DNA of 64,000 nucleotides, taken from NCBI GenBank assembly GCA_030144725.1, contig JASKMD010000029.1, forward strand, positions 9,432,358 to 9,496,357. The letters are read 5' to 3'. Both the position numbers and the translations under genes were made by a program. Each line of letters begins with the position of its first letter. Positions within the stretch are counted from its first letter, which is position 1. The notes beneath the pieces were generated by a model. It saw only the letters and a list, made by a program, of their open reading frames with translations. It was not told where the DNA came from and searched no databases. Below are positions 19,721 to 59,277 of this stretch, one piece after another. The DNA comes from Haematococcus lacustris (Eukaryota > Chlorophyta > Chlorophyceae > Chlamydomonadales > Haematococcaceae).

Positions 19721-19790
19721 GGTCGGGCAATCGATGTTGGCATGAAACACATGCTCTGATGTAGGCAACAGCTTGAGCTTTGCCTGATGC
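19721..19790 (-). ncRNA. Candidate omega-RNA scaffold (conserved 3' end), subfamily 1
   Basis: Contains GTTGGCATGA, ACACATGC and TGATGTA blocks in the same order as in the copies near 30633, 31672, 42935 and 58541. Transcription is inferred, not shown. Confidence 0.35.
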
Positions 19791-20760
19791 ACACATGCTA
19801 CTGTGCTACAGGCTGCTGGGCTAGGGCCCTGGGGGCTCGGGTCTCGCAGCTTCTTGATGACCAATGATGGGTACTCCTTGCCCTGGGTAGGAAGCCTTCC
19901 TCGGTGTGGCCACCTGCACAGCTCCAGTGGGCGCCACTTGCTCTCCCCTGCCCGCTGTAGGTTGAGGGCTGCGTTGCAGTCCCTGTCCACCCAATTGCCA
20001 TGGTCACCAGGGGTGGCCTGGGCCAGCCAAGGGCACCACATGAGCCCCCGCACTGGCGCCTCGAACCGCTTGCTCCAGGCTGACCGCAACAAGTGGTTCT
20101 GCACCTGACCCGGCTTGGGCTTCCAGTCCTCAGGCCTGGTGGGCTTGCTGCTGTCCAGCTCCTCCTCACAGGGCTGGGGGCTGTTCATGATTGAGCTGAC
20201 CCTGCTGGTGCGGAACTCATCCACTGTCACCACCTTGCCTGGCACCCTGTTGCTTGGTTTGCCGCTGTTGGCCCTCTCCACCACCTTGCGGCAGGCCTGC
20301 AGCACAGCCTTGGCCCCCCACCCACCCCGGGTGCCAATGCCTGCCTTGCCAAGGAACACCACCAGCTGCTTGCGGGTCCCCCACTGATGCTGGGACACGC
20401 TGGCTGCCTCCTCCTCCAACTGCATGGCACACAATGCACACAATGCGCATGAGATCCTTGAAAGGATTGGGGACACATGTGGGACACACTAGCAGGTCAC
20501 ATGTGGGGCAGTCTTCTGGAAGTAGCGCTCCAGGACCTTCTCCTGCGCACCATGCAGCCTCATCTTCTGCTCAGCCCACTTGGGATGCAGGTTCTCCTCC
20601 CACACTGCATCCCAAGTGGCCAGGGTGACGGCCACATGCCGCTGGATGGCCACCAGGGAGGTGCCTGCTGGGGTGGCTGCTGCCAGGTACTGGACCTCCT
20701 CCTCTAGCACATCAGGGAGGGTGTGCAAAGCCTCCCGAAGATGAGCAGCTTGAAGGACAA
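19721..20760 (-). mobile_element. Fanzor/TnpB-like element, subfamily 1, 5' truncated; longest open C-terminal half
   Basis: The exon-like ORF 19577-20476 encodes, in order: QLVVFLGKAGIGTRGGWG, ACRKVVERA, VVTVDEFRTSRVSS, RGLMWCP, WVDRDCNAALNLQRAGES and WRPLELCRW. The VDEFRTS and DRDxNAALN blocks are hallmarks of Fanzor/TnpB RuvC nucleases. An upstream ORF (20489-20728) adds LVAIQRHVAVTLATWD and HPKWAEQKMRL, separated by a spliceable intron as in the copy at 31783-33329. The RuvC-I segment is absent beyond 20760. The usual stop is lost, so the ORF reads into the conserved 3' end. Probably dead, but it best shows the family. Confidence 0.75.
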
Positions 20761-23700
20761 CTAGTTACTACTGCATGACTGGCTGTACATGGCAGGTCAG
20801 GGGCCCCAATAACTGTAAATGTGTCCTGTGTTCAAGGGTAGTCATGTGTTCAAGGGTAGTCCTGTGTTTAAGGGAGGGAGCCACCGGGTCAAAGTATGTA
20901 CATGTTCTTCATCCTCAGCTGCCGCCCGCTGCTGCGCTTGCTGATGCTGTGAAAGGGGTTCTCCTGCTCCAACTGCCAGTGATGGGCACCAGCTGCCAGC
21001 CGATGCCGGAGATGAGAACCTGCCAGCTCTCCTCTTGTCAATAGGAGTCAACCAGGTGGTTGGGGTGGGCATGCCACTAGCTGTGCCCGGTAAGCAGACA
21101 GGTGGGTTGAGCTGGACATGCCTGTGGCCTCTGCTGCTGGGGGCACTGAGACCCACACAACAACAAGCAAAGGCTACTGCTGTGTGCCTACTGCACAGAT
21201 ACAGTGACTGCAACCGTTCTGTGGCCTGAGCCTCAGCCGCTCAGCAGGCTGGCCAGCAGCGCTGCATCTGGTGCCCCCCGTCATCGGCCCCGCTGATGAG
21301 GCAGGTGGGGGGGCCATAAAGATGTGGAGGGAGAGGGGAGGGCCAGAGGCCAGAAGAAAGGCAGGTCTGGGCCGTCGGCAGGGATGAGAGCGCCTAGATG
21401 GTGTTGGGAGGTGTTGCTAGGGCAGGAGTGAGGCTGGGAGGGGGTGGACATAATGGGCTGTGGCTATGAGGGGTTGAGTGAGTCAGGCTGGTGGATGGGC
21501 TCACTATACAGGACCAGTTGGACCTCGTTGCTATGACCACAATGGCCTCTTGACACCGTCTGCACCCGGTGTGCTCAACTATGTCGTAACGGCTTGATGC
21601 CAGGCACTGCTGACACTTCCCATGTGTAGGTGATGGTGATGGGTGGTGCTGCAAGGGGTGGAGGAGCACTTGAGCTGGCACCTTCCCACCGCCTTCATAG
21701 CCGACCCATGACGAACATCAGACGATTCATGGCATGACACACATCAGACGGTGTATGGCTGTCACGCTGTATGCCGGCATCCGCCAGAACTGAGTCGATG
21801 AGCATCTCTACTGCAAGTGGACACCTGTGACTCCACTCCACATCTGTCGCATGGGGCACTACTTTACTTTATGGTGACCGCAGTGTTGCGAGGTCTGTCA
21901 CACAGCACACATCCCTTGTCCTGCTCATTTGCTCTCTGCCGTTAATATCCCTGCTGTTCTATGACCCATCCCCTTCACTCTCCCCTGCAAACTGGGCTTG
22001 GCAAGCTGTCCAGCCCAGTACAGCGCTGTGCTCATGGCAGGGGTACTGGGAGGGTCATCAAGCAGGCAGTGCCAGAGAGTGTGTGGAGCTTTGCCCCATC
22101 TGAGTAAGCATCCCGGGGGAGGGAGGGGGCTTGGCTGAGGCATTGTTGATGCTGCGCAACGCCCTCTGCATGTGTGCCAGGCCATTACCCGGATCAATGA
22201 TGGGCCAGGGGTGTAGAGTAGGGCGTGTCTCGGCGTATTAGCTCCGAGCCAAGTTGCTAATATTAGCTGGTGGTGGTTTCTTTATTTCTGTGTCCAGGAG
22301 GCGGCCTCCGACCGCGCATCATCAACCAGGTGCGCAGGAGCCTAAGCGCCGCCAGGCGCAGCCATCAGCAAGAATCGGCTGCAAATATGAGCTAATATGG
22401 TTGGCTTGCTATTATTGCTATTATTGCTATTATGTATGTACCGTCCTAGTGTAGAGACCAAAGGGGCAAACCATTTCATGTGTTGCTTACCATTTGCATG
22501 CCAGCAGCAACACCCACAGCACCTCCTGCAAATGATGCACAGGTCAGGATTTGAATGCCAGAGCAGTGGCGGGTAACAGGCCCTCACCTTGTTATACCCA
22601 TTGCACACGCTTCTTGGCCTCGGCGACTACCACTGTCTCCTCCAGCTGCCCGTTATGAAGTGCATTAGCTGCTGCCTCGCATTGAGCTTTCATAGCCTCA
22701 AATACTTGGAGTTCGGTCAACCCTGCACACATGCACACGTATTTACTTCTCGTGGGTACATCTGTGCATCGACGTACGGTCATCTCGAGCACGAGGCGCT
22801 TAGGTCATGTCAGGCGCAAGGCGCGGCTCGGACCATGCATAGCTAGGCACCTTGAGCGATGACATGTCACACATGAGCAAACAGTCCACCATAGCGTAGC
22901 TCCGCATACCAATGCATCGCAGTCGACACGGCCCGACTGCTTACAACACACCGTTGCGAGTAGACAAAGCTATTTCGCCCCTAGCTCGCATCTGCCCACA
23001 GAAACTAGTTCAGACGCGCTACTAGCAAGGAAACACAATTGGTAGCATTGCACCAAGCGCGACCGGCGATGTAACGGCGATTAAACATTGCAAATGGCCT
23101 GTTGACATATACACATCAGGCCAGTAGACGAGGGCTTTGTTGAGCTGGCTTGCGTAGAGAGCATTTCTGCTTAGAATGCATGCTGGTATTGACCTTCGCT
23201 GCCCGCTGATGTGAACGATAACGCCGGCTCGCCGCATCACACGGTTACCGATGCCGAAGAAGAGCCCTAGCTAGCAACGCACATTAAAGCGAGCGCAGTG
23301 CTCAAGTCCGTCTGCATCGCCTACCAGGTCCCCTGTTCGTTGCCCGCTGTTCGTCGCGCACTGCGTTGTCTGCATGCTGCCTGCTGTTGTTGACGATGCC
23401 GCTGGAATCTTGGGCGTCTGCCACCTTGTCCACCAGCAACAGGTTGTGGCACAGCAGTGTGTGCCATGCTTTGGTTGTCCCGCCTTACATTAGTGCATGC
23501 CTGTCATGTCAAACCACCCTATCAAACCCCTGAGCGGTCAGCAAAATGCTTGGCACCAGGCTTGTGAACAGTGCCTCCCTCCATTCACGTTTGCTGCAAC
23601 AGAGACTGAGACAGCAGCTGCAGGCGTGGTCAGCGGCTTGCAGTATAGCGAAACCCTCGTGCTTGCGCTACCGCCGTGCTTGCTTGCAAAGGGAATGGAG

Positions 23701-24076
23701 GGGGAGAAAAGGGGGCTTGCTTGCAGCACTCCTCCCATCGTTGATGCTGCCACAGATGGTTCAGGACGGCTAGATGACCACAGACAGGCTGTCAGGTGGG
23801 GGTCTGCAGGGGGTGCTCTAGGACAGCTGCTGGTTCTACCACTGCTGCTTCTGCCGCTGTTGCTGCTGCCACTGCTGCCGCTCCTGCCACTGCTGCCGCT
23901 CCTGCTACAGCTGCTGCTGCTCCTGCTGCTTCTGCTGCTTCTGCTCGTCTCGCTATCACGTTGCCCGCCTCCACCAGCCGCTGCCACCACCTCCCCGCCA
24001 CCTCTTGACCTGGTCACCTCTGGGTCACTCTTCTCCTCGACACCCATCACACTCCGCCACATCTCACCCCGCCAAA
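20761..24076. other. Mostly uncharacterised region
   Basis: No convincing gene. A minus-strand exon-like segment at about 22595-22722 (GLTELQVFEAMKAQC, AKKRVQW) and a short one near 22490-22530 could belong to a small gene starting near 23240, but the chain is weak. 23790-24060 is Ser/Arg or Leu-coding low complexity. Confidence 0.35.
22595..22722 (-). CDS. Putative exon of an unknown small gene
   Basis: Flanked by a TGTGCAG acceptor and a GTATAA donor, with a helix-like amphipathic sequence (ELQVFEAMKAQCEAAANAL). Family not recognised; the neighbouring exons are speculative. Confidence 0.3.
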
Positions 24077-28306: not shown

Positions 28307-28337
<31 letters not shown>

Positions 28338-30540: not shown

Positions 30541-30544
30541 CTAC

Positions 30545-30720
30545 AGCACCTTAGCCTTCACTAGGACTGCATTGTTGTGAACCACTACATTGGCGCGTTG
30601 TACACTCAGTTCCATGCACATGGCATGGTCACCTACACCATTGCCTGACCCCTGTGATAGGGCTACAGCCTAGAGTTGACATGACAAACCTGCGCTGATG
30701 TAAACTCACAACAGCTCACG
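30545..30720 (-). mobile_element. Solo 3' end of a subfamily-1 Fanzor-like element
   Basis: Only the conserved 3' non-coding end is present, with the palindrome-like GCCTTCACTAGGA at 30553-30565. No ORF is attached. It shares about 30 bp around the palindrome with the copy at 37085. Confidence 0.6.
30633..30716 (-). ncRNA. Candidate omega-RNA scaffold, subfamily 1 (solo copy)
   Basis: Plus-strand order CACCATTGCCTGACCCCTG, AGGGCTACAGCCTAGAGTTG, ACATGACAAAC, TGATGTAA, ACAGCTC matches the other copies. Confidence 0.4.
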
Positions 30721-31165: not shown

Positions 31166-31539
31166 ACATGTTATTTTCATATTGAATGGGTTTTGTTTTC
31201 TGGGAGGGATAAGGATAATTATTGGCAGTAGTTTGTGAGGGATAAGGATATAGCAGATAGGGTGGCGAGTGGGGAGCATAGTGACCACTGCGCTTATTGG
31301 GCAGTTGCTCTGCGTTTGAGGGGCCTCCTGGCACAGCTGAGGCGTGAGGGGCCAGAAGCTGTGCCGGGCAGTGGCAGTATGGGGTGCAGGAGGCGGGTTT
31401 GTGTCAAGGCCGTGAGGGCCATGCACACAAGCCGACTAGATTGGAAGGGGGGTGTGATGACGCAGCGTCCCACGCAACCAGCCAGTGCCTCTGCTATATT
31501 GTGCTGAAGCTTCAATGTCCACTGCTAAAGGGGTCATTT

Positions 31540-33330
31540 CAGCCCTCTTGTCCCTCGCTAGGGCCTCCATTTGAGCCTACTAGCAGCCACTAGCAACCAC
31601 TGACTAGATCCGACTCAGACAGTGTTATTGGACTGTGTGGAGTAAACCCAGTGCACATGGCACATGAGCCGCCTACCACCTACACTATTGCCTGACCACG
31701 AGGGCAAGGTGTAGAGTTGGCATGACAAAACATGCACTAATTGTAAGCTGATGACAGCTCAAATGGGGGGGGGGGGCACACACTACTGTGCCTCAGCAGG
31801 CTGCTGCTGCTGCTCCTGGGCCATGGGGGGCTTGTCTCGCACCCGCTTGTAGCCCAGGCCAGGGTACTCCTTGCCCTTGGCTGGCAGAGCTCCCTGGTCT
31901 GGCCAGTAGCACAGCTCCAGCGGCCGCCACCTGCTCTCCCCAATGCGCTGCATGTTCAATGCTGCATTGCAGTCCCTGTCTAGCCACCTGCCTGGCTGTG
32001 GTGCTGGCTTGGCTTTGGCAGCCTTGCCCTTGCCCTTGCCCTTGGTGGGCTCAGCTGCCGGCTTGCTGCGCTTGGCTGGAGGGGCTCCTGGCTCCAGGCT
32101 CCTGGCTCCAGGCTGGGCGCACCAGGCGGGGTTCCACCTGCCCTGCTGGGGGCTTCCAGCCTGCAGGCCTTGTGGCACTGAGTTTGTCCAGCTCCTCCTC
32201 ACAGGGCTGCTGGCCATTCACTGCTGAGCTGACCCGGCTGGTGCGGTGCTCATCCACAAGCACCACCCTGCCCCGCAACTGGTCTGTGCCCCTGGGCCTG
32301 CACACTACCTTGCGGCAGGCACGCAACACCGCATCAGCACCCCACCCTTCCGCTGTGCCAATGCTAGCTGCTCCAAAGAACACCACCAGCTGCTTGGCAT
32401 GCCCATGGCGCTTCATAGACACCTCCGCCATGTCCTCCTCCAGCTGCAGCCATGCACACAAGGCACATGGTGGCTGACATGGTGACACCAGGTTAGGCAT
32501 GGCACAGTCAAGTACTCTTTCGTTTCGTGCCCAACCCACCACCTCTCAGTCCCTTACCCTCCCTCCCTCCCACCTACCCACCCACCCTCACCTTGTTGAA
32601 AAACTGCTCCAGCGCCCGGTCCTGGGCTCCGTACAGCCTCAGCCGCTGCCGTGCCCACTTGGGGTCCAGGTACACCTCCCACACCGCATCCCAGGTGGCC
32701 AGGGTGACGGTGATGTGCTTCAGGTTGGCCTCCAGGGAGGTGCCGGCTGAGCTTGCTGCTGCCAGGTGCTGGAGGTGGGGCTTGATCGGTGCTAGCCACC
32801 GCTCTGTGTCACGGCGGGCATTGTTCAGGCCGCTGGCATGCTTCACCTGGCCTTGGTCAGCTTCCACCGGCGCAGCTGGTCTGCCATCAGCTGGCCTGAC
32901 TGCGGATCCCACACCCCAAAGGCTGCGCTGACTGCCTGGGTGACGCCGGGGTCGATGCCCACCCCAATCTGTGTGTCTGGGTCAAACACATACTCACGCG
33001 TCTCAGCTATGCCCTTGCCTATGTGGGGGAGTCCCACTGCATGGGCGGCTGCTGCTGCTGCTGCTGGCAGCTGGGGGTGGGGCTGCAGGAGGAGGAAGGG
33101 GGTGCGTGTAGTGCACGCACACGCTGACACCGTCAGTGTCCACCGTCCTCTCAAATGCAAATTCCTTGTTACGAAGCTTTTTGGTGTCGAACCACCTGGC
33201 CCAGTGATGGCTCTGTGCTGGCTCTGAGGTGACTGCTGCCCGAGTTTTCTTGGTCAGGCCCAGCTGCCTGCACACCCCATGCAGTACCCTGCTGTCCACC
33301 TTGATGAAGTGCACCCCCACCCTGGCCATG
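31540..33330 (-). mobile_element. Longest Fanzor/TnpB-like copy, subfamily 1 (frameshifted)
   Basis: Minus-strand pieces in order: HHWARWFDTKKLRNKEFAF and TDGVSVCVHY (33130-33329); the RuvC-I block IGVGIDPGVTQAVSAAFG with the catalytic Asp (about 32920-32975); ITVTLATWDAVWEVYLDPKW (about 32650-32710); QLVVFFGAASIGTAEGWG, VVLVDEHRTSRVSS; then RWLDRDCNAALNMQRIGES, WRPLELCYW and the C-terminus. GT-AG introns are plausible between blocks (donor near 32594, acceptor near 32445). A frameshift near 32855 and a deletion and shift near 32100 that removes VRGLMWCP make it non-functional. The 3' end carries the candidate scaffold and the palindrome CCCTCGCTAGGG (31552-31563). Confidence 0.75.
31672..31761 (-). 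ncRNA. Candidate omega-RNA scaffold, subfamily 1
   Basis: Begins about 22 bp past the stop codon of the attached ORF. Plus-strand blocks: CTACACTATTGCCTGACC, GTAGAGTTGGCATGACAAAA, CATGCACTAA, GTAAGCTGATGACAGCTC. Confidence 0.45.
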
Positions 33331-33424
33331 GGGGTGAGGGTGAAGGGGGGCGGGCAGGTCAGGGTCCGGGGTCATTACAGTGACTAAGCTCAGCTCCAAC
33401 CCCTCATTTCATTTCATTCATTTC

Positions 33425-33834: not shown

Positions 33835-33873
33835 AGGGCATGAGCTGCCCAGCCCTGGCAGCTGGAGGATGTG

Positions 33874-36580: not shown

Positions 36581-39500
36581 ATGTTGAAAACTGCAGCAAC
36601 TGCAGCCGTACGCTTCTGGCTCTCTGTCGTGGTGGCTCCTCTATTCCGGCCGCTGGTGCGGGCGGCGTGCTACGCCAGGCGCACATTGGTGTGCCGCGAG
36701 CCACGCCGCGCCATGGCAGCCAGATCAGGGGGCGACGGGTGAGCGTTCATGCTAATGTATGGTAAACTGGGATGCTTGTTTGTGGCGCCCTGGCTAACAG
36801 GCCAATCGATCAAGGTGGTTGAAGTAGACAGTACACAATGCTTACTTAGGCTTGTTTGCACTATGTGCAGGGCTGTGGAGCTATGCATGGACATCACTGA
36901 CGTCACACGCGACAACTTTGATGTTGCTCTACCCAAGATACAGAAGGCCCTGTCTGAGTGCACCTACTATGCATTCGATTGCGAAATGACAGGCCTGTTC
37001 ACTGACAAGGCAAGGCAACAAGGTTGCTACGTAGCATGAGGCAGTAGGCTGGGCCTAACGACCCCAGGGCCTAATGTCTCCCAGTGACAGCACCTTGGCC
37101 CTCACTAGGGCCTACATTGTCGCTGATTGTAAGCTAATAACAGCTTAAGGGAGGGAGGCACACAGTACTGTGCCACAGGCTGCTACAGATGCAGCTGGGT
37201 CTTGGGTGGCTTGTCTCACAGCCACTTGTAGCCCAGCTCAGGGTACTCCTTGCCCTTGGCTGGCAACCACCTTGGCTGGCGAGGGGGTGTTGGGTCCAGG
37301 CTCTGGGGCTGTTGGCTGTGGGGTTGCCTGGCTGCATGGGGGCAGTGGCAAGACGAGTGGGGCCAACACCAAGCACGACATCAGGCCCTGCACTGGCTGG
37401 TCATACTGCTGGCTCCATGCTGGGCACAGCAGCTGGTGGTGCACCTGCCTTGCCGGGGTCTTGCAGCCTAGAGGCCTGTTCTCACGCAGTCTGCTGGCCT
37501 GGTGGCCCTGCGCTTGTTCCGCTGGCTCTCACAGGGCTGCTTGTTATTCACTGCTGAGATGAACTGGCTGGTGCGGAGCTCATCCACTAGCACCACCCTG
37601 CCCTGCCGCTCGTGTTACAGCACCAGCAGTAGCCTACACGGCTCGTATTCAACTTTTGCTCAGCTGCACCACACTTGCAAAGCCCAGTGTCCGCTAAGAC
37701 CCTGCCAAGGGAGTGATGGGCGCTCTGATTGCAACGCTGAGGGCCATGCTTGCGTTGCCATGCTTGCTATGTAGGGCAGTGATGAGTACCTTGATGACAT
37801 GCAAGCCCGGTGGGTCAGAGTGGTGCGGACACCTGCCAGCACTATCCCAGCTCTCAGCCTCAGGAGCAGGAGGAGTCCTTAGCAGGGAGGCAGGGCCGCA
37901 GTGCCCCTGGGGCCTGCCTGCATATACTGCCCAGCCAGCAACCAGGGAACCTACATAGCTAACTCCCAGCCAACACCCAGCCAGCAACCAGCCAGGGTTG
38001 GGTGCAGGACCAGGGTGTGCGGCATGGTCACGGTCAGGGTTCGCTGCTGTCATGCAGCACATGTAGGTCAGGCCTGCATTGGGGTCAGGGCTTGGGTCGA
38101 AGCTAGGGGTAGGGGTAGGGACAGGTCTGGAAGGGGCCTGGAATGGGTCCAGCCCCCAGCAGCAGCAGCAGCAGCAGCAGCATGGAATGCACAGCCCCTA
38201 GCAGCAGCAGCCAGCAGCAGCAGTAATTGCAACTAACAAAACCTCCAACTGCTGTACCGCGGGTTAGAACCAAGTACCAAGTACCAAGTGTTGCCGCCTG
38301 CAGGTACAGCCGAGTCAGGGATGCAGCCGCCTCCTACACCATCACCCAGTTTGGTCTATCCTGCTTCTCCCTCAGCTCCGGACCCCCCAACAGCAGCAGC
38401 GCTGCTCACAACCCCACCACCCCTCAGCCCTCCCCCGCTGTGCCAGCAGCAGCAGAAGCAGCAGCCACACCAGACACTTCAAGCATCACTGCACAACAGC
38501 CAGCAGCTGGCCCTGCAGCTTCCCAAACTGCTCAGCAGCAGCACTTTGAGGTGAGCAGCACACACACTGGCCGGCTGGGTATTGAGACGCAGTCAGGGTG
38601 GAAACAAAACAATTGCATGGGAACCTAGCAAACCACTGTCAATGCCATGTAATGCTCATGCCCATGCCAGTCTGTTGTTGACGACTTTTCCAACCTAAGC
38701 AGGGAGCAGGGATTGAGAGCAGGGAATCAATAGGGAGAACATTACAACCCGCCATGTAACATTACAACCCGCCATGTGCCAACTTAACCAACCTATTAAA
38801 CTTAATTGTGTTGGCAGTGTGCACAAGCTTCCCGTCAGGACGTGGTTACAATTGAGCACGAGCTGCAGCCTGGCCAAGACTCAGCCACCAGCCCCCTGCC
38901 ACGGGATCAGGCTGGTAGCTCCTAGTGCTCATGGCAGCCCTCTTGTCCCTCACTAGGGCCTCCATTTGAGCCCCCTACTAGCAGCCCTACCTACTAGCAG
39001 CCACTAGCAGTGCTCATGGCAGCCTACATGAGCTGGTCTTGGGATTTGAAACCATGACATGTAGTGCTGGCTGTGCCACTGCCACCTTCTCAGGTCACTA
39101 CCTTCAACGCCTACATCTTCCCTGAGCCGCTGTCCTGGGAGGTCTCGGGTTCAACTCCCGCCCGCCGCTTCCTTGTGGATGCTGGGTCACTGTCATTCTT
39201 GTAAGGGGGTCCTCTCTGCTCGCCCCGCCCTCTTAGCCTGTGAGCTTGCCCTCCTTGGCACCTCTGCCACCTTGCACCTCCACTTCACACCCATTGTGTG
39301 ATCATCACATGGGCTCCCCATCTACCCATCATACTGATTGTGTGCGCATCATGTGTGCTTCCCATGCGCCTTCCTTGCCCCATCAGCGTGCCTGCCCCCT
39401 TCCACTGCATGCTCGTGTGTTGCCCTAAACCCTGGCCCCACTCAACACCTCCCCCTTCCCTCCATGGTCCGTGTCTTTCACCACTCCATATCCTTGCATC

Positions 39501-42500
39501 ACACATCAAATGTGACACGCATGCTAGGGCACACGTTCCTGACTCCTGGCCAGTATGTGATGGTGGCACATGGGGGGCCGGGCTTAGGGGCACCCACCTT
39601 CTACTCAGCTTCTCCCCAGCAGGCTGACTGTCAGCTGCACCTCCCTGCCCTGCCCTGCACCTTCCCACCCTGCATGCCTGGCAGCCATACCGCCTGGCCT
39701 ACTGCCCCTGCTGACAGGAGCGCCAACCACTTTGACTTTAACAAGTGGGTGGCTCAAGGTGTGCCTTACATGGCTCTGCGCGAGCATGCCAAGAAAAAAC
39801 AGGTGGGTGCGAGGTGCTCCCTACGGCATTCGAACAGAGTAGCTATGGGTGTGAGGCTGATTGTTTACTTGGTGTGTAGAATGACTGGTCATGACACATG
39901 ATGTGGGTGACTGCATGGCTGCATGAGCGGTGCACCCTGCCGCTGATCTTGATTATGACTGATGCTTGATTCCTGGCTATGTAACAGCTGCCTACAGCTT
40001 AGTTTGGGCTATGCTGACTGGCTGAGCAGCTGGCAGCTGGGTTAGTAGCAGCGGCAACAACATCAGCGGAGGGGCTGGCTGGCCGTGCCTGTGCCGTGCA
40101 GTCTGGGGCCCGCCAGTCTTCTAAGACTAACCCTGTGGTATTGGAGAAGGAGGAGGACCTGGCTTTCGTGGCAGCGCTGTTGGCTGAGGTCAGGCCCATT
40201 GTAGCCTGACCTTGACCCCGACCCTGACCCTGACCCTGACCCTGACCCTGACCCTGACCCTGACCCTGACCCTGACCCTGACCCTGACCCTGACCCTGAC
40301 CCTGACCCTGACCCTGACCCTGACCCTGACCCTGACCCTGACCCTGACCCTGACCCTCACCAAGTCAGTGCAGATGTAAGTGCACTATGACCTGCATGCT
40401 CATGCTGTGCTGCACTGCTTGATAGTGTGCCTGCTGGGTCTATATGCCCAGACACCCCATGCCTTGCATGCACACAAGAAGGAGCCAGCATGTCATGTCA
40501 TGTTAATGCCGGCCTCCCAGTTTGTCATCTTGCTGGGCTCACCACTCAAAACAGGTCAAACAGTGGCTGGTGGCTGAGCCAGCACTGCCCTCGCTGCTGC
40601 TGCCCCGCTACAACTCCTTCCAACGCCTTTTAGTCCACCAAGTCCTGGCCCAAGTCTCACACTTTGCTGGCCTGGAAAGCGTGACCGACACCCATCCCGG
40701 CTTCTACATCACCAAGGTAGGCAACCAGGGCGTCCGCACCATCCTTAACCAAACGTCAACCACCAACTGCCAACCGCCCACCAACCGCCTACCAACCGTT
40801 TGGCATGGCGGGTGGAAGTAGTGGATGACTTTCCTGGCCCCTGGCTCACCCTGCTTGTCCTCATTGCTGGCCCAGGTTGACATGGATGGCTGGCCGCGCC
40901 TGCGCCTGGTGCGCGGCAGCCTGGCTGCCAAGGTGGCTCACGAGGTGGAGGAGGCAGCACTCAGGCAGGAGGTGCTGCGGCAGGCGGCTGGCTTCAGCCA
41001 AGTGCTGCAGGCCATGAGGGACAGTGGCAAGCCGGCTGTGGGCCACAACTGCTTCATGGACCTGGCGGTAAGGGGAGGCCAGGGGCGGGGCCAGGGGGCG
41101 GGGCCAGGGGAGAGACCAGGGCCGAGGGCGGGGCCGCTGCCTTGCACCGCCATGCAAGTCCTTTGCGTGTCACTCCCACACCCGGCTACGCATGTCATGG
41201 CATGCCTTGCAGTATGTGCTGGCCTCCTTTGCCACCGGGCCCTCTGCTCTACCAGAAAGCTGGAGGGACTTCAAGGAGCTATGTGGCTTCTGGTTCCCTG
41301 CTGGCCTGTATGACACCAAGCACATTGCCTACCAGCTCCCCGCATCCCTCCGCCCTGAGGGCACTGGGCTGGGCCAGCTGTACCAGGAGCTGGTGGCTGA
41401 AGGTGCGTACCAACAGTTCTCACGCCCTGTGCCCGACCCACAACATTTCAAACAATTCAAAAGTCAAAAATTTACCATGCTGCTCCCAACCGGTGCCATG
41501 GACCCACCGCTCCTCATAAAAGCTACCACGTGTTGTCGTCATTGCTTCTTTGCTGGAATTGCTTGTTGGTTGCGGCCCTGCTGGATTCAAGGCCCTCAGG
41601 GCACTGGCATTCAGGCCCTGAGGGCACTGGCACCCCCTTACAGAGCCATGCCACAACGCCAGGCTCCTGTGACAGTGCTGGGGGGTGGAGCACTAAGGAG
41701 GGGCACCCCTCTCATGACTTTGCCCGCAGGGGCCTGACTTCGTGCCCAGCTCCACTGCAGTCCTGAACCCTATAATGCAGGGAGAAGGTGGTCCACTTTG
41801 CCTCACACTTTGCCTTACTTTGCCTGTTGCCATGTTGCTGAGTGCCAGTGGTGACAGTGGTGGTAGTGCTAAGGTGTGTGCGGTGCCTACTTCATGCCCT
41901 GTACCGCTGCAGCCCTCTTGTCCTTCACTAGGGCCTCCATTTGAGCCGGATCAGAAGTACCTACTAGCAGCTACTAACTAGATCCGACTCAAACAGTACC
42001 GCCCTGTACCGCTGCAGTCCTGGTCCTTGCTGTGTGCGTTAACTGGTGTGCAACACAGGCAACAACATAAGAGAGCCACAACACCTCCCTTCTTGCCATG
42101 AGTCAGTGCAGCCCATTAAAAGCTGACCCCAATCCATGCCCTGTTGCACAACCTGATGCATCTCATCAAGGCATGCCATTTGCCAAACATGGCGTTGCTG
42201 CAGACTCAGCGCCACTAGCACCAGCACCAGCCCACCATGCCATACCTAGCAAAGGCACCACCCTGTGCTGCCCTGCCTTGCATGACTGCACACAGGAGGA
42301 TCTGCCCGCCCTGCAGCAGCCCAGCTAATGCAGCAGCAGCTAGGCTTGGGCCTGCCTACCATCAAGCACCATCCCCACTGCTCCAAGTACGAAAATGTTG
42401 CCGCCGGGGCTGCTGCTCACGAAGCTGGGTACGTTGTGTTGTAAGCATGCGCTGTGGCCACTGTCACACATCGTGTGAGGTGTGACGATTTGTGTTGTGT

Positions 42501-44005
42501 CACAGGTATGACGCTTACATGACAGGCGCAGTGTACGCCTTCCTGGGGGGCCTGGCTCGCGCCGCCCTCGGCCCCCCGCCCCGCCCACAACCCATTGTTG
42601 CACAAGACCAGCAGCAGCAGCAGCAGGCTCCCCCTCAGGAGCAGCAGGCAGGCTCGGAGGTCTCAAGGCCCACAGAGGGCACAGCAGCCAGTCAGCCGGG
42701 TGAGGGGTTAGCGCCTGGCCAGGTGGTCCCAGTGGGGCCTATTCAGGACGTGGCCCAGCCACTGGCGTCACCGCAACCCCAACTGTTGGAGTGGCTGTCA
42801 CCGTTCGCAAACAGGCTCAACATTGTGAGTCCTTGAGGAGCAACCCATCATCAGCCCAGCGGGCAAAAAATGCCACTGCAAAGGCATGATCAGGTCCCCT
42901 CACTAGGGGCGGTGATTTGTCTATATGGAGTGTCCACCTCAACTGTTGCCTGACCCCTGTGGCAGGGCTATAGCCTATAGTTGGCATGACAAACATCCAC
43001 TGATGTGAGGTGGTGACAGCTCCGAGGGGGGCACATTACTGTGCCCAGCTGCTGCTGCCGGGCCTGGGGTGGGCGGTCTCGCAGCCACTCGTAGCCTAGG
43101 CCTGGGTACCTGTTGCCCTTGGCTGGCTGAGCTGGCAGGTCTGGCCACCAGCACAGCTCCAGCGGGCGCCACCTGCTCTCCTCAATGCGCTGCATGTTTA
43201 GCTCTGCATTGCAGTCCCTGTCTACCTACCTGCCTGGAATGCCATCGGGCTGGGACAAGCAGCTTTGCCCCTGCCTTTGCCTTTGCCCTTGGCAGGCTAG
43301 ACAAGCTCAGCCGCCTGATCAGCCCTTTGTGTGCTCGGCTGACTCTGGCGTAGCAGACTGACCCTCGCCTTTGCCTTTGCTCTTGGTGGGCTGGATGGGC
43401 TCAGCTGTCTTCTCAACCTGGGTGCCCCTGGTGTGCGTCTGACTCATCCATTCTCAACCTTGCTGCTGCATGGGCTGTGCTAGCCTTTCTCAGCCCCATG
43501 TGTATGCCTGGCCATGGCTGCAGTCTCGCTCTGACATGCCCTTCATCGCGCTGGGCGGGCCAGACCTCCTGCTGCTGCGCCCCCATGTGCTCCACCTGCA
43601 TGGGCCCGCTCCTGGCATGCGCTGCATGGACATTGTGCGCAAGCTGCAGAGCATGGGCGTGGCAGGCAGGCCCCGCGTCACTGCCCTGCCCCCAGGTGGG
43701 TTTGGTGACCAGCCTGCAGGGCAGGTCAGGCGGCTGCAGGCTGTGCAGGTGGATGCATGGCTCCATGGTGTCTATGTTGTCCATGTGGTGGATGGCAGCA
43801 AATCGCCTCCTGGTCAGGGTCCACCCCCATCCCAGCCACTCTGGTCTGTGCGGCGCATGTGCTGCTGCTGATGATCGTGATGATGTTGGCCAGGCTGCTG
43901 CTGCTGCTGCTGGCCAGGCTGTTGCTGCTGCTGCCGCTGCTGCTGTTGGCCAGGCTGTTGCTGCTGCTGCACCGCTCCTTCGCTGCTGCCGCTCCATTTG
44001 TCCTC

Positions 44006-45373: not shown

Positions 45374-47607
45374 CTAGTCAGTTTTGCCATGTGAAGTCCC
45401 AAGCTTCTTCGCCCGCTGCTTCAACAAGCTAGCGTACAACTGCCACCAGACCGGCAGATACACGACCAGGCCGACCTACGTGAGAACAATCAATCACAAT
45501 GGCAGCAACGCATGCAAGCATGTCCATTATGAATCACGGCTCACGTGTGTGCACCCAGGCACACACTGCTGTATAGCAAAGATGCAGGACTCATACAAAT
45601 ACCAGCTGTGACACTGTCTCCTGTCAACCTGATGCCAGCAGGTCACACTCTGCTGCTATGCAATGGTCTAGCCTGTCCTTCTCATCTCCCCGGCTCACCT
45701 TGCTGAAAGTGTGATACGAGAACGCAAAGTTCAGGCGGTTGGGCAGGTGCCAGCTGTACATATCACGAGCAGCCAGCACTGGCAGAGCGGACCACAGCAG
45801 CCACATCTCACAAGCAACCCCTATCGGGTAGAGAGGGATGAAAGCGGTGTACCTGCATGGTTATGGAAAGCAGGGTGGGGTCACTGGCCAAGGCCTGGCG
45901 CTGACTGGCCTGCTCTGCCCTGTGCCAAGTCCAGCTCTGTCCCAAGGTAAACAAAGGTCCAGGCCTGGTGCTAACTGGGTCGAGATACTAGTGGGCTGGG
46001 CTGGGCTGGGCTGGGCTGGGCTGGGCTGGGCTGGGCTGGGCTGGGCTGGGCTGGGCTGGGCTGGGCTGGGCTGGGCTGGGCTGGGCTGGGCTGGGCTGGG
46101 CTGGGCTGGGCTGGGCTGGGCTGGGCTGGGCTGGGCTGGGCTGGGCTGGGCTGGGCTGGGCTGGGCTGGGCTGGGCTGGGCTGGGCTGGGCTGGGCTGGG
46201 CTGGGCTGGGCTGGGCTGGGCTGGGCTGGGCTGGGCTGGGCTGGGCTGGGCTGGGCTGGGCTGGGCTGGGCTGGGCTGGGCTGGGCTGGGCTGGGCTGGG
46301 CTGGGCTGGGCTGGGCTGGGCTGGGCTGGGCTGGGCTGGGCTGGGCTGGGCTGGGCTGGGCTGGGCTGGGCTGGGCTGGGTACTGACCTGAGCCAGGTGA
46401 GGGCATGTGGGCAGACGTCCAGGATGGACAGGGCATACCAGGGGTAGCGCACCACCTCTGATGCAGCCCAGACCGCCAGCAGCAGCGAGCTGGCAGGGGA
46501 AGCTTGGACCTGGGGCAGGGACAGAACACCCTGGTCTGCTGATGATCTGAGACATGACTTCGACATGGTTTTTGCATCAATACCCTCTGGTGGGAGGGTA
46601 GCAAGGGCACGCCCCTAGGCTACTCTCCTCCCTAGTCTTTCTTGCTTTCTTTGCATCAACACTTGGCCAGGGGTAGGGAGCTGAACCCAGCGTGAGGCAG
46701 TCAGGTGGTGGCGGGGTGGTGGGTAGCATCCAGCAGGGACATATTGCATGGCTTGCTTTGCCCCACCTCTTGGGGATGCTGTTGGGAAGCGTGAGGCTGA
46801 GGATGTGGTGTGGGGTCGGCAGGCCTAGAGTGAGCTGGAAGTCAGGCTTGGCATGGTCATGATAATCATCATCATCATCATCATCATTGCATTGTGGCAC
46901 TCGCCTGTCGGCATTGCTGAACACGTAGCCTCATGGACTCAATGTGTCAAGCTTGCATGTCAGGCCAGGCATGGTGATGGCGGATGTGTCTAGTAAAAGC
47001 AGTGTATGCAGGCCATCATTTCCTTTCTGTTGTACCACGCCATAGGCCCAAATCTGCATGCAGCCCAAGGGGCTGGCCGCACACTTGCGGACTTTCCAAT
47101 ATCCCTACTCACGTCAGGGATATTGGAAAGCACCAAGAACAGGATGTTGGTGCGCCCAGCCCATTGCAGCAGCGCCATGGCAGGGCTGGACCGCACAATG
47201 CCTAGGAGAGTGTGGATAACTTCTAGTCCTGACAAAAGCTGGAACACCCCTGCGGGAAAAGCACAGCACTGAAGCTGGCTGCAACCTTAGACAAAGGCAC
47301 TGTACATGAACACTGGGGGACAGGTAGGACACTGCAGAGAACACCATACGTTTACTGGATAAAGCTGAGTGAGATGAGCCACAGACAATACCCTGTTGGG
47401 TAGTTGGTATGTGTAAAGCTCAGGATTGCACCCTACCCCAGCCGACTTGCTTGCAGTGCCGCCAGCTGCATTAAAGACGTTCACATGGTTACCACCATTG
47501 GCCGCGTAGCTCGCGGCGACTGTCCAGAGGCACCATGCCCATCCGAGCGCCTGGGTCGCGTTGTATGCCACGAGATAAACATCTCGCAATTGCAAAGCTC
47601 CTGCCAT
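45374..47607 (-). CDS. PAS2: Very-long-chain 3-hydroxyacyl-CoA dehydratase (HACD/PAS2 type)
   Basis: ER membrane enzyme for the third step of very-long-chain fatty acid elongation (3-hydroxyacyl-CoA to enoyl-CoA). Exons: first exon from 47607 (start [16 protein letters not shown]) to about 47392, then 47113-47249, 46388-46509, 45699-45852, 45374-45475. Phases agree for the last four; the junction after exon 1 is unresolved. Family blocks: [72 protein letters not shown] and the C-terminal KQRAKKLG. The Tyr and Glu of YPIGVACE sit where the family's catalytic Tyr and Glu lie. Several hydrophobic membrane segments are present. A long GGGCT array fills one intron and a perfect hairpin encloses one splice donor. 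Confidence 0.83.
45990..46380. repeat. GGGCT pentanucleotide array in a HACD intron
   Basis: About 78 near-perfect GGGCT units between exons 46388 and 45852. The Ala-Gly-Leu-Gly-Trp and Pro-Ser-Pro-Ala-Gln ORFs across it are artefacts. Confidence 0.97.
47092..47130 (-). promoter_or_regulatory. Perfect 15-bp hairpin enclosing a HACD 5' splice site
   Basis: CTTTCCAATATCCCT (47092-47106) and its exact complement (47116-47130) flank a 9-nt loop. On the transcribed strand the loop is GACGTGAGT, exactly the exon end (GAC) and the GTGAGT donor. Confidence 0.8.
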
Positions 47608-53050: not shown

Positions 53051-53059
53051 GTGCCCAGG

Positions 53060-53180
53060 ATGTGCTGCAGACCTGCTGCAGGTGGTGGGGAGGCCCAGGG
53101 GCACGGACAGGCAAGGGGGCAGGGTGGTACTTTTTGGTTCCGCACCAGCCAGGTCAGCTCAGCTGTGCGCAGCCCCAGCC
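53060..53180 (+). mobile_element. Fanzor-like fragment, subfamily 1
   Basis: Encodes VVGRPRGTDRQGGRVVLF then a decayed APARSAQL, matching VVCRPRGTDQLRGRVVLVDE of the 31783-33329 copy. Very short remnant. Confidence 0.5.
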
Positions 53181-53647
53181 TGCACCTAGACCGCAGCTGC
53201 CACAGGGTGAGGGAGTGAGAAGGAGTATCAAGCTGGGATGAACACCCTGGAGCTAACCACCCGACAGAGCACAGCAGCAGATTATGCTGCTGCATGGCAC
53301 TGTCTCCTGGCCGCAGGTAGTGGAGGGCTGCAGGTGGTAGAGGTCAGGCTAGCATTGATCCAGCCAGTGCTCGGTTTAGTGCATCACGGCTGTACTGGTC
53401 TTGGCCATTTGCCCCTGCATGGCATTCATGATTGCATGTAAGCATGATAATGCTGACATGAGACAAGCAAGGCAGTCAGATGCGAGGCACACCGCCATTG
53501 CATGCATGAGGGCAGGAGCAGCAGCAGCAGGCTTTTTAGCCAGACTGCACTTAGCCATTAGGTTGTGTGGCTAGTGAGGTGTGGATGACATTCACAGAGT
53601 GGGACCAGGCATGCTTGCCAGCCACCTTGATGACCACCAGGGCGACC

Positions 53648-54410
53648 TCAACAAAGCATGTCAAAGCAGGTGGGGTAAGCACTGTGCCTGCATGACTGGC
53701 TGCCCATGGGAGTGTATGGGTGTGTTGCTGCTGCTGCTGCTGCCAGCAACACACCTGTGCTATGCAGCACCAGCTGTGATTGCTGGGTGTCCCACTCTGC
53801 CACAGCCTGCTGAAAGCCAGTGACAGTGTCCTGGCACTCTGACAGCACTAAGCCGCTCTGTGATGCAAGCTGGTGCAGGCGGGTTCTGTTGGACACTAGC
53901 TGCTGCTTGGCAGCATCCACCAGCTCCTGCACAGAAAGAAGCTGGGCATATCCCTAGCGGTAGTACTGGCCAGATGTCAGCAGTGCTGAGGTGTCATCTG
54001 CTTACCTGCTTTCTCTGAATCAGGGCTTCACAATCTGTCCGCAAGTCTGGGACCTCTCTGCAAATATGTGAGACTCATCGGGTACTGTGTGTATAGTCCA
54101 CGGAGCCCTTGCAGCGTCCTATAGCTTACGCCTGCAACTTTTGAATGCGTTTCACAAGGCTCATTGGGTTGACCTGCAGTCAGTCCGTGTGCGTTGTTCT
54201 TGACATTGTCACGGTTAGACAGCACCACAACGTGTTTACCCCTGCAGACTGGTAGCGATCCGCAAATTCCTCTTCAAGACGCCGCGCAACCCTCTCGAGA
54301 ATTGCCTCGGTTTGTAGAAGCTCCCTCACGAGTTCATCTGCTGCACTCTTCATGGGCGCTGACTCGCGTTGTGACAGCCACTGACTGTCAGAGACAGATG
54401 GGTCTGGCAA
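53648..54410 (-). CDS. SKA2: SKA2-like spindle and kinetochore-associated protein
   Basis: Exons in phase: 54240-54410, 54130-54173, 54006-54057, 53648-53926 (181 residues). Blocks match plant SKA2: LVRELLQTEAILERVARRLE, VNPMSLVKRIQKLQAEVP, DCEALIQRKQELVDAAKQQL, NRTRLHQLA and QAVAEWDTQ. SKA2 forms part of the SKA complex that holds kinetochores to spindle microtubules. The product is mostly helical and coiled coil. The last exon may instead end at a donor near 53755; without that splice a stop follows at 53648. Confidence 0.75.
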
Positions 54411-54714
54411 TTCGTATTAATGTTCATGTCGTAAACCCAAATAAAAGTACACAAATTATTACGTGCATGCGCCTTGTCAATGTTTTCTCATGTACAGCCG
54501 GGTGCACGTCAAGTGCAGATGTACTGCTATGTACATCATGCAACGTTCGACATCTGACGATGCCTAGCTAGGTGCCCGCCTGAGAGCCTGCCGGCTGTGG
54601 TTGCCAGAACTTGTGAATCCAGGCAGAGTGTGCCAGACTCGAACATGCCCGGGTACAGCAGCTCCAGCCGCTTGAGATTGGGACTTCCCTGCTGTGCAAA
54701 GTGACCAGCTGCTA

Positions 54715-57700
54715 TCATCGATACCCCAGCTTGGCCTCAAGCTGCACTCGAGTGAGAGGTACTTCTGCATCGCTGTCACTATCGCTGCTGGAATTACCGC
54801 CCCCATCCGGCCCGGGTACTGTAAAGGTCGCGGTGCTGGAGGCGTTTCCCACGCCCTTGGAAATGACAGACACACGTGACGATTGCTGCACCGGCCCGCC
54901 AAACCCATCCCGAGCACTGGAGCTTTTGGCTTTACTCAGCTTTGGAACCGTGAGACCCGTGGACGGCAGGCTGACGGGCGCGTTGCCTCGACTGGCAGCG
55001 GAATTAGAGCGCACCAATCCATTGGCTGCGCCGCTCTTGCCCAGGATGGTCGAGTACACGGCAACCACGGCACGAGCTCGCGTCTCAAAGAGACCGAGGT
55101 TCTGAGCGCAGCAGCAGGCCAAGGGCAAAGGAAGGTATGAAGCGGTGCTGAGTAAGCGTCCCATCCACAGTTCAGGCTGTCAAGCCACCCCACCAGCTAC
55201 TTGCTCGACATGTGGCTGTACCCAACCAACGTTCCAGGCACTGGATTGCCCAGCTGCAACATGCCCTGGTTTTGTCTCAGCATGGAGACTCAGTATTGCA
55301 ACATGGCGTTGCTCCTTCCTCACTCAGCAGGAGCAGCATTAGCGGCACCAGCACCAGCATGAGGGCAATACTGGCAGCTGCGTGATGGGGACTTCTGAGC
55401 TGCCACAGCAGCACACAGCTCCCATCAGCACTTACCTCCATGAGGGTGGCAAACACACAGGCTGGGTCTTGTGGCCTGGCTGGCTGCGCCGGCACCACTC
55501 CCAGCGCCTTCAGGGCAGCCGCCACCCCTGCCCTGACAAGTGCCAGCCGCCGCTCAATGCCTACTTGCTTGTCCCGGAGACCCTCCATACGCCTGGTAAG
55601 CAGCAGCAGCAGCAGTAGCAGCAGGAGAAGGACATCTTGTGCAGCAGCAGTGATGGAGCCATGCAGCAGGTCCTGGCCACCAGCAGTGGCAGCGGCAGGA
55701 GCAGCAGTGGCTACCCTGCATGGACGCCACTTGCTGCCATCCTCACAGCACTGCTTGCAGTCCCCAGGTTAGCAAGCACAGCAGCAGCAGCAGTGCCTGG
55801 TCCACGATGTCCACAGTCCATGGGGGGTGTTTTCCTAGGAGACTTGATGCACAGCGTAGCTGATGCATGGCATGCTTGGGAACGCCCAGCTTCCACTCAC
55901 TTGCAGGCTGCGTCCCTCTTGGCCAGTGTGGCCTGGATGACCTCCTTCTGCTGGGCCAGCGCTCCCTGGGCCTCAGCTGCAGCAGCTTCAGCCTATGCAG
56001 CACCGCCAAGGATCAGCAGCGTCGGCACCAGGGGTTGCAGCATGGGGTGCGGTGGGAATGCATGGGCGCAGCCTCCAGGTCGGGACGCAGTTGGCAGCAC
56101 CCCGTTGCTCCTGCCAACTCACCATGCAATCACCATGCAGCAGCCTACTGTGCAGCCACACAGCCCTCCACAGCCCCTGGTAGCTTGATGGCCCGGCCTA
56201 CCTGCAATTGCTCGAGCTCTTGTTGCAGGGCGCCCAGCTTCTCATTGGCCTGGTTGCAGCTGGAGAAGACCTCAAAGTTCTGGGCTTCCAAGCGGCAGCA
56301 GTATGCTACCAGCTGCTGCAGCAGTTCACTGGAGGTACGGTTTTTGCTGTTGGACGTCTTGGGCTGCCGCAAGTGTTGATCCCCGATGCCAGTGATGCCC
56401 AGCAGCTGGCTGATGAGCTGCTCACACTGGGCTGCACTGGGCAGCTGGGAGGCTGTAGGTGAAGAGTCGGCACTGCCTGCAGCAGTCATGGCTTCTAGCC
56501 GCTGGGCTTGGGCCTGTAGAGCAGGAGGTCGACACCACAGCCTCTACACCCTGCAGCATTCACTCAAACAGGCTTAGGACAAGGTGAGGTTTATTGCACG
56601 CTTAGCAGTGCAGTAACTCTCTACTGGTGCCGGGCTAGGAGAAGCAGAAAGAGGAGGGCAGCAGAACAGGTATATAACCTGGCTGTCAAGCAGGGGCATT
56701 TGCATGGAAGCACCATTGAGGCTTACCAGCAGCAGCTGCTTGTCGGCGCCTTGGCAGTCAGCTAGAGACTTCAGCACTTCCTCGGCTGCCCCGGCCTCTC
56801 GCTGGTTGGCAACTTGTAGCGCTGTGGCGCTACGACGGGCGCTGACACGCGCCTCGTCGGCGATTGCGATGGCTGCGCGCACGGCATCTAGCTCGGCCTG
56901 GCGAGACGCGATGTCGCGCTCCAGGCGCTGGCAGAGCTGCGGCAGAGAGGTGACAGCAAGCTACATACTCATAGTGGTCTTCCCTGGGACGCTGCTCGTT
57001 AAGGGTATCGTGGGCGACATGACGACGGTGGCGTCATTAGGGTGGCAGACCCACTCAGCCACCTTGGTTGGTGTTCAGTGCACTTGCCCTTACCTGCTCA
57101 AATGCCTCTCTGTCCTTATTGTGCGACTCAATCTCCGCCCGTAGCTCGTTGTTCTTGGCCAGTGTCTCACAGAAACGCCTCTCCATCTAAGGGCATCATG
57201 GCACACAGTCCCCACACTGTTACGCACTCCAAGGCACAGCTTCCAATGCATGTCGAGGGCAAAGTGCCTGTGATGCTGCCATTGCTCGATGCTCTGATGT
57301 GTGCCCGGGCTCAAGCTGACTGCCAAGCTGGTCATGCTCTGGCCTTCCCATGCATTGCATGCTGCCCTCACAAGGCATCACCTCATGCCAGCAACTAGAT
57401 GCAAAAGTGTCACGGTCACACAGCCTGCACGCACCTTCTACCACACTGCCTCGATCTGCTCTGACAGCTTCATCCCTATCCGCCCTGCCCCATTCCCTGC
57501 TGCACCACTACAGCTACACTGCTCCTCCACCACATCAGCTTGTTTGCAGCCTTCTCAACGCACCTGCTCCAGCCTGTTCTCTAGCAGCTGTCGTGTCTTC
57601 AGAGCCTGACGGGATGCCTCCACAGCTGACTGGGGTCCGCCTGTGAGCCGGCGCAGGTCAAGCACCTGAGGCCAGGGCGCAGGGGTGGCTCCTGTGCAGA

Positions 57701-59277
57701 GGTCTGACAACGGAGCTGGGATGACCCTTCCTTCTAGGCAGGAATCCATTGCCCCTGCCCATGTTTGACCAACACCAGCATGACAATACATACAGGCCAT
57801 ATTCCCAGTCAGGGTGTGGGAGTTGACAGATCTGGTACATGAGGCATCTGAGCTGCACCTGAGATGATTAAGTTCGCCTCAGCTGCCTGCCCTTGGGAGA
57901 AGTGTGGATCCCTCCTCTACATGGCTACAAACCCATGGGGCAGAAGGAAGGGCCAGCAAGTGCTCAGCAGCACACCAGGAGGCAGGGATTGGTGTGGGGC
58001 ACCTTAGGCTCATGCATCAGCCAGGTGCATCAGCAGGGATGTGGCGAGCCCAGCTTGAGCCTCAGACCCCAGGAAGGGGGCGGTGGCTTTGAATCATGCT
58101 ATGAACCTAAGCCATGGCTCTGTGTTATGGCAGTGCCAGAGCAAATCATGGGCCACTAGACACAGTGGCCCGGCAAGTGGCTTGGGTAAGCTGAGGCAAT
58201 TCAGGCTAAGCCCATGACCAGGCTGTGCACCTGATGTCTATTATGCTGCTGTGAGCAAATTGGAGCAAAGGCTGCAGACGCCATGGCCTAGGCCGTGGGA
58301 CCCAGCAAATGTTGTGGTGTGTTATGCTTCCCCATGTCTGTAGCATTCCTTTCACATCATTCAGCCCTTGGACTTGCATCCTCTATGGTGGTGGTGGTGG
58401 TGGTGGCTAGACCTGGACAAGTAAGCTGCCAGCCGAGAGGCAAGGAGTACCCCAACCTGGGCTACAAGCGGCTGCGAGACCAGCCACCCAAGAGCCAGCA
58501 GCAGCGGCAGCCTGTGGCACAGTAGTGTGTGTCCCCACTGAAGCCGTCATTAGCTTACAGCGCATGTCCGTCATGCCAACTCCAGACTATAGCCCTGTCA
58601 CAGGGGTCAGGCAATAGTGTAGATGGAAGGCGCCCCTGCCATGTGCATGGGAACATGTAAGCCCGTCTAATGTAAGCCCTAGTGAGGGACGCGGGGTCAA
58701 CCAGCCAGGGTTTGGTCCTGACTTCTACCTAACTGTCACCATCCAGCTTGTGCTGTTGCTATACCGCATAGCATTAATAGCAGTGCAGCGTCACCTTGGC
58801 TTGCGTGACCTCCAGCTCCTGGTTCATGGCTTCCACCTGCCGGCTCTCTACTTCAATCTATGGCGCAAGGCAGCAATCCTGAGGTGAAGGTTGCACATGG
58901 GAAGCTAGTAGGCATGCCTTCATACCCAGTGGACAGTACCTTACGGTTGTATGTCTCAATCAGGTCTTGCAGCTTCTCAACCCGCTCCTGCTGTGCTGAT
59001 CCCATGGCCTGCAACAGAGCGTGCTTTGTATGTAACAGGGCTGCAGCTAAGATAGCCTGTTGTGAGAGAGATAGTAAGGGTGCCCCAGCACCTGTGGGCC
59101 CTGACCAAGCTCTTCTTGCAACCTGGCATTCTCCTTGCGCAGTAGTTCAATTTGCTGGCGCTGGTGCGCCAATGTCTTCGCTTCCTCATCCACTTCCGCA
59201 TTGCGTACACCCTCCATTGCCTTGATACGCTGCTGCCATTCGCTGACTTGCTGCTCAAGCGCAGAGCAAGCGGACAT
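54715..59277 (-). CDS. 556-residue coiled-coil protein, ODA docking complex (CCDC63/CCDC114)-like
   Basis: Ten exons all join in phase: 59092-59277, 58940-59008, 58795-58857, 57564-57665, 57094-57186, 56727-56936, 56202-56513, 55901-55992, 55436-55592, 54715-55101. Almost the whole product is heptad-rich coiled coil. NNELRAEIESHNKDREAFEQ and LEAQNFEVFSSCNQANEKL resemble the conserved (N)ELREEID and NFxxFNYxxExN segments of outer-dynein-arm docking proteins (ODA1/CCDC63/CCDC114). The C-terminus is Ser/Asp-rich and probably disordered. An axonemal role is inferred from this resemblance. The start at 59277 is used; an in-frame ATG lies at 59340. The large intron 57666-58794 contains a Fanzor-like 3' end. 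Confidence 0.72.
58418..58690 (+). mobile_element. 3' end of a subfamily-1 Fanzor-like element inside an intron
   Basis: Keeps only the ORF tail (GKEYPNLGYKRLRDQPP, stop at 58524), the scaffold and CCCTAGTGAGGG (58677-58688, complement of the shared palindrome). Antisense to its host gene. Confidence 0.7.
58541..58625 (+). ncRNA. Candidate omega-RNA scaffold, subfamily 1
   Basis: About 17 nt past the ORF stop. Contains the complements of the blocks in the minus-strand copies (ATTAGCTTACA, GTCATGCCAACTC, CTATAGCCCTGTCACAGGGG, TCAGGCAATAGTGTAG). Confidence 0.45.

Follow-up and report, generated by a model that had tools for sequence, protein, structure and literature searches.

Fanzor1 elements of Chlamydomonas reinhardtii, i.e., CRe-1, CRe-2 and CRe-3, were described as non-autonomous Helitron2 transposons (Bao and Jurka 2013, PMC3627910). 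According to that description they show frequent 5' truncation with intact 3' ends, target-site duplications (TSDs) of ~7–19 bp and a 3' hairpin that follows a short repeat (PMC3627910). The same source gives the Fanzor1 motif as D-X(125,275)-[TS][TS]XX-C4 zinc finger-X(5,50)-RD (PMC3627910). For SpuFz1, an omega RNA with a 75-nt scaffold and a 14–15-nt guide was reported, which is located at the element 3' end and runs 14–15 nt past it (PMC10432273). A literature search over titles and abstract openings, with most subscription journals outside its range, returned no account of Fanzor elements in Haematococcus lacustris; the one work containing both Fanzor and Haematococcus is, by its description, on Auxenochlorella (PMC12636532). 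The published H. lacustris assembly is given as 151 Mb with 47.3% repeats (PMC7617258).

We analyzed a 64,000-nt stretch of H. lacustris genomic DNA (the window) in which Fanzor-like remnants are followed by a common non-coding block. Below we argue that the block probably, although by no means certainly, makes up the initial part of the 3'-terminal region in a Helitron2-like, non-autonomous mobile element that bears a Fanzor1-like gene and moved from its 3' end.

A non-coding block beside Fanzor1-like genes

The initial annotation had listed five copies of the block and a partial one. We refer to copies by short names, i.e., c1 (19.7k), c23 (23.5k), c2 (30.6k), c3 (31.7k), c4 (37.1k), c5 (42.9k) and c6 (58.6k). 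A profile model built from c2, c3, c5 and c6 was run against the whole window. It returned these four at 30718–30598 (−, E 1.8e-36), 31761–31636 (−, E 1.6e-28), 43023–42902 (−, E 1.4e-34) and 58540–58661 (+, E 5.3e-33), scores that are high by construction because the same copies had built the model. The count stood for four full copies and for c4, a surviving piece of 27 nt (37147–37121, −, E 0.0071). At c1 only half a block was present (19773–19714, −, E 1.3e-5), in which the likeness stops after GCCAAC and a different tail follows, and one diverged block, c23, had been overlooked (23473–23564, +, E 8.7e-6). The block is ~88 nt long. Pairwise identity among the four full copies was 75–77%, compared with shuffled means of 43–46%, and the likeness is therefore not due to chance.

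All six copies with an ORF tail carry an anchor, GCACAGTA (GCACAGCA in c23, where it lies directly upstream of the block), which holds the usual stop codon and starts 21–30 nt before the block. The initial annotation had placed the block within a few tens of nucleotides of the stop codon. Read by eye, this stop is altered in c4 and c23, and in c1 it does not share the reading frame of the long ORF. Beyond the window, the translated block was recognizable in 5 of 359 retrieved proteins (P0083, P0104, P0227, P0283 and, antisense, P0138); this is an undercount, obtained with few patterns read by eye in gene models that run into the block. A 16-nt block core also matched 27 loci in viral contigs and 35 in prokaryote contigs. 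These matches were taken as chance and set aside, the 20 best being 18–27 nt long and tblastn giving no Fanzor piece with them.

Of 1020 candidates, 872 were related to the C-terminal ORF beside the c3 block at E ≤ 0.001. With the c3 read-through (453 residues) as query, in a search that admitted proteins up to 1.75 times the query length, 1084 relatives were found among 8000 candidates scored. Among the matches listed, all in both searches were from Haematococcus lacustris, those of the first search were named hypothetical proteins, and relatives of the read-through reached 792 residues. Alignments of 17 and 18 rows gave a common motif order, i.e., GIDPG, then SRVSS about 190 residues on, then DRDCNAALN; in P0130 these correspond to D369 in GIDPG, SS 559–560 and RD 686–687. 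The catalytic D, a [TS][TS] pair 125–275 residues later and the following RD of the Fanzor1 motif were hence all present. The C4 zinc finger (PF07282) was not, since we found two conserved cysteines only (C568 and C613 in P0130). Two proteins, P0186 (27.6 bits) and P0227 (29.8 bits), passed the PF07282 cut-off of 26.3 bits; both are multi-copy gene models, in which the score adds up over the repeated copies. The other family proteins scanned stayed under the cut-off, and the window ORFs gave sub-threshold Pfam matches only.

A second H. lacustris family was homologous over ~420 residues (28% identity, E 2e-25), and in four of six proteins scanned from its search PF07282 appeared with E 0.0005–0.042, all under the cut-off. 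When both families were joined in one profile, a PDB search at a limit of E ≤ 10 returned SpuFz1 alone, with E 0.036, through two collinear stretches, each weak by itself, in which the TS and RD motifs lie. Single proteins and single-family profiles, when used as PDB queries, returned nothing relevant and no SpuFz1, and NCBIfam nothing relevant for five family proteins; AlphaFold2 models of the family, from shallow alignments, had mean pLDDT values of 31.9 and 35.6. From the motif order, the homology to a second family with PF07282 matches and the joint-profile match to SpuFz1, we call the block-adjoining ORF Fanzor1-like, in line with the first assignment of these genes.

Further remnants were seen in the window. 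The segment 60168–60901 (−) is a remnant of the second Fanzor1-like family, in which ORF 60242–60562 is 85% identical to residues 189–296 of P0259 and ORF 60584–60901, by eye, resembles its N-terminus. Two Fanzor-like C-terminus remnants, 16190–16441 (+) and 61171–61420 (−), carry no block as far as seen; they are 80% complementary over 170 nt and probably belong to a further subfamily. Comparison of 61169–61690 with P0002 gave no homology, in a reading frame thought unsuitable. Long arrays of short tandem units occupy 7095–7870, 9549–10250, 45892–46390 and 62960–63396, and are useless as gene evidence because they are open in several frames. Some H. lacustris gene models fuse Fanzor-like sequence to unrelated domains, e.g., P0177 (PF00011), P0198 (PF00153) and P0231 (kinase). 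These are probably annotation artefacts from transposon insertions, a warning that many public gene models of this alga contain transposon pieces.

The 3' end of the elements and their insertion

Downstream of the block end we found a palindrome, CCCTAGTGAGGG, at a distance of 25 nt in c5, 50 nt in c6, 61 nt in c2 (with two mismatches) and 110 nt in c3; it also lies downstream of the block piece in c4. With at most one mismatch the palindrome occurs at six sites in the window, all of them element ends (c3, c4, c5, c6 and two further sites, s38 and s41), compared with a chance level of 0.81 per shuffle, and none of 100 shuffles reached six. With two mismatches allowed, 12 sites were found against 11.07 expected. 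Because such sites are no commoner than chance, the c2 palindrome was accepted solely for where it lies and for its resemblance to c4. In the terminal stem, two of the six pairs were changed on both sides, which 24 of 500 shuffles equalled.

From about 10 nt past the palindrome onwards, mean identity of the ten copy pairs was 47% compared with 46% after shuffling, i.e., background; in one pair, c2–c3, it was 58% and just exceeded its own shuffled maximum of 57%. Directly after the palindrome c2 and c4 have AAGGTGCTGT, some ten bases, in common. The element does not end with the block, as the palindrome lies further out and homology falls to background past it. The 3'-terminal layout is a stop codon, ~20 nt, the block, a spacer, the palindrome and the element end 3–9 nt later; in these degenerate, 5'-truncated copies the block lies a short way inward of the 3' end.

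The sites s38 (38940–39008, −; palindrome 38947–38958) and s41 (41913–42000, −; palindrome 41922–41933, one mismatch), located by BLAST and a 3'-end model, carry the 3' end alone without the block and are of the same variety as c3. The model built from c3, s38 and s41 gave E 4.6e-20 for s38 and E 2.7e-30 for s41, both among its own builders; on the others it gave E 9.7e-5 (c4), 0.0065 (c6) and 2.9 (c2).

We searched seven insertions for TSDs, i.e., for a repeat that starts 3–9 nt after the hairpin and also at the homology start. The limits of this search were chosen once initial results had been seen, and for c5 and c6 the presumed 5' start was shifted by 12 and 11 nt, respectively. In five of the seven, flush duplications were present, four of them exact (7–17 bp) and one, of 13 bp, with a single mismatch, at single-copy p-values of 0.0005–0.026. 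The solitary ends gave the clearest repeats, exact over 16 bp in s38 (39009–39024 and 38924–38939, −) and over 17 bp in s41 (42001–42017 and 41896–41912, −), each with p 0.0005. Copy c3 (31543–33367, −), which runs from the ORF remnant through the block (31674–31761) to the terminal palindrome (31552–31563, one mismatch) as delimited by translation and BLAST, is flanked by the 13-bp pair CTGTAATGACCCC (33368–33380, −) and CTGAAATGACCCC (31530–31542, −) with p 0.003. A 12-bp repeat, GGGCTGAAATGA, had also been considered as the c3 duplication and was dropped in favour of the flush 13-bp pair, as it lies away from the homology start and 2 of 200 random windows were as good.

In c5 (42894–43315, −; ORF tail, block 42934–43023, palindrome 42897–42908) the 7-bp duplication CTGATCA lies at 43316–43322 and 42887–42893 (−, p 0.026). 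In c4 (37095–37616, −; internally deleted ORF remnant, block piece 37121–37147, palindrome 37099–37110) an 8-bp repeat, GGTGCTGT, lies at 37617–37624 and 37087–37094 (−, p 0.013); it is doubtful because the sequence that c2 shares after the palindrome overlaps it. All five duplications have CTG at or near the start. By eye, no T-rich tetranucleotide or TTTT precedes them. The flush-repeat test gave no duplication for c2 and c6 (p 0.70 and 0.91).

Against their common 3' end, the 5' starts of the copies are staggered in BLAST comparisons: c3 already begins ahead of the GIDPG motif, and c2 only within the block. A copy with the block but no ORF, and one with an ORF tail and the block, had been noted as separate cases, and both exist: c2 (30545–30718, −) consists of block, spacer and palindrome, and c6 (58415–58691, +) of ORF tail, block (58540–58626) and palindrome (58677–58688). 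We regard them as members of one 5'-truncated series. Together, the common 3' end, the staggered 5' starts and the duplications bear out the early suggestion that the 3' end is the mobilized part. No 5' end, no 5' hairpin and no Rep/Hel gene of an autonomous partner were seen within the window. Copy c1 (19714–20694, −; half block 19714–19773) is a Fanzor1-like remnant of another subfamily.

The hairpin might be a different repeat that happens to adjoin the block, whose end would then be the true right end. The spacer of variable length, 25 to 110 nt, and the two hairpin ends without block are in keeping with this. However, the spacer can be aligned among c2, c3 and c6, and in c3 the ORF, the block and the hairpin all lie between the two arms of the duplication; we therefore take them to have moved as one 1.8-kb unit. 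We consider a chance neighbourhood of two repeats very improbable.

In our preferred reading, that of a Helitron2-like element mobilized by way of its 3' end, copying would start at the hairpin end and often stop early, as was proposed for CRe-1, CRe-2 and CRe-3. By analogy with these elements, transposition may be of the rolling-circle, "one-ended" kind, for which the copying enzymes would come in trans. The blocks would then be alike because the copies descend from related source elements and decayed afterwards.

The main mechanistic rival is a LINE-type retroposition, in which the reverse transcriptase of a non-LTR retrotransposon would copy the unspliced element RNA into its targets from the 3' end; the resulting truncations and TSDs would be no different. 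Direct repeats of 7–17 bp with CTG at or near the start, 5' truncation and very short solitary 3' ends all agree with this process. However, c1 and c3, the two copies that extend across the intron site, each hold an intervening sequence there, for which the RNA would have to be unspliced. In c3 this intron-like sequence (GTGAGG...CTGCAG, 32444–32591, −), recognized by translation, is missing from the predicted family proteins; that of c1 is without a clear GT donor. Moreover, no A-rich tail was seen at the 3' ends of the copies. We regard retroposition as possible but rather unlikely. The copies themselves can be used to choose between it and rolling-circle copying.

The window also contains pieces of a CAF1-family ribonuclease gene (36749–41737, +), with PF04857 in three ORFs in order. 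The insertions c4, s38 and s41 are interspersed with these pieces in reverse orientation and presumably occupy introns.

RNA properties of the block

The block had initially been proposed as a candidate omega-RNA family. Stated for the whole 3' end, this means that the guide scaffold of the Fanzor-like nuclease would consist of the block and possibly also of spacer and terminal hairpin (together ~150 nt in c6), and that the DNA past the element end would be the guide. The place of the block directly after the stop and inside the 3' end is like that of the SpuFz1 scaffold as described (PMC10432273). By eye, most copies allow a GCATG/CATGY hairpin, and the read-through of P0104 is consistent with an intact CCCTG/CAGGG hairpin.

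The folding tests point the other way. On the sense strand, z-scores of five block copies were −0.8, −1.9, 0.1, −0.2 and 1.4, i.e., without any excess stability, and the four block-to-hairpin stretches gave −1.1 to −0.3. In a hand-drawn three-stem structure none of 18 pairs was changed on both sides, in four decayed copies with little power. This structure left 87.1% of cells paired, the same as the shuffled mean; slid versions paired 30–50%, which is expected because the structure was drawn from these sequences. RNAalifold, on four copies and likewise with little power, predicted 24 pairs, none compensated, with a covariation term of +0.88. The covariation check suggested at the outset hence gave no compensated pair in the window copies by either route, and Rfam gave no match at its gathering thresholds. 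Unlike the other copies, the antisense strand of the c3 block (31674–31761) was unusually stable (z −3.5).

Conservation was compared with the adjoining coding remnant. Block identity among c2, c3, c5 and c6 was 75–77% (mean 76%), and ORF-tail identity among c3, c4, c5 and c6 was 69–83% (mean 76%); adding the diverged c23 and also c1 brought these values to 69% and 71%, respectively. The block is therefore no more constrained than the dead coding sequence beside it, which, within the window, leans towards the outcome that had been named as refuting a guide RNA. In addition, the block ends 25–110 nt inside the element. Since the omega RNA of SpuFz1 sits at the element 3' end and runs past it, a counterpart here should reach the hairpin and not end at the block.

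With tests that are weak on four decayed copies, the window shows nothing that makes the block a guide RNA, and we consider this role unlikely, though still conceivable. It is compatible with a mobile 3' end, and both can hold together. More specifically, the 3' end from block to hairpin could serve twice, as recognition end for copying and as guide-RNA scaffold of the nuclease, which we judge distinctly improbable. If this were true, the family would have given rise to more than a thousand coding remnants in a single alga, through insertions anchored at the 3' end and truncated at the 5' end, with copying possibly by target-primed reverse transcription, and every insertion would gain a new guide that starts in its own target-site duplication. 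The true 3' end provides a handle here, as it allows one to ask whether the sequence past the hairpin is a guide or ordinary flanking DNA. Given its size (1084 relatives, many with long open frames), the family could help to explain the spread of RNA-guided nucleases in eukaryotes.

Comparison with described Fanzor elements

The H. lacustris elements are nearest to three described systems. Spu-1 of Spizellomyces punctatus, including its "ghost" copies, resembles them in a conserved stretch from the stop to the 3' end and in gene-less copies; its Fanzor1 protein, SpuFz1, is the one PDB match of the joint profile (PMC10432273). In contrast, Spu-1 is described with terminal inverted repeats at both ends, whereas the H. 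lacustris copies are 5'-truncated with no inverted ends seen, and the Spu-1 RNA was shown by sequencing (PMC10432273). The Auxenochlorella repeat, which we liken by its description, is an abundant green-algal repeat with a Fanzor gene, as here (PMC12636532).

The closest likeness in layout is to the CRe elements, again by description. The Helitron2 trait of a hairpin near the 3' end is present in the palindromic ends, and so is the CRe-type one-ended insertion, with truncation and with TSDs in five of seven insertions; the T-rich tetranucleotide is absent. Unlike the CRe elements, the H. lacustris copies have duplications with CTG at or near the start and not after TTTT, the zinc finger of their protein is reduced, and the window holds no 5' end. 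Like them, they combine an intron-bearing, Fanzor1-type gene in a green alga with 5' truncation, intact 3' ends, TSDs in the range of ~7–19 bp and a 3' hairpin.
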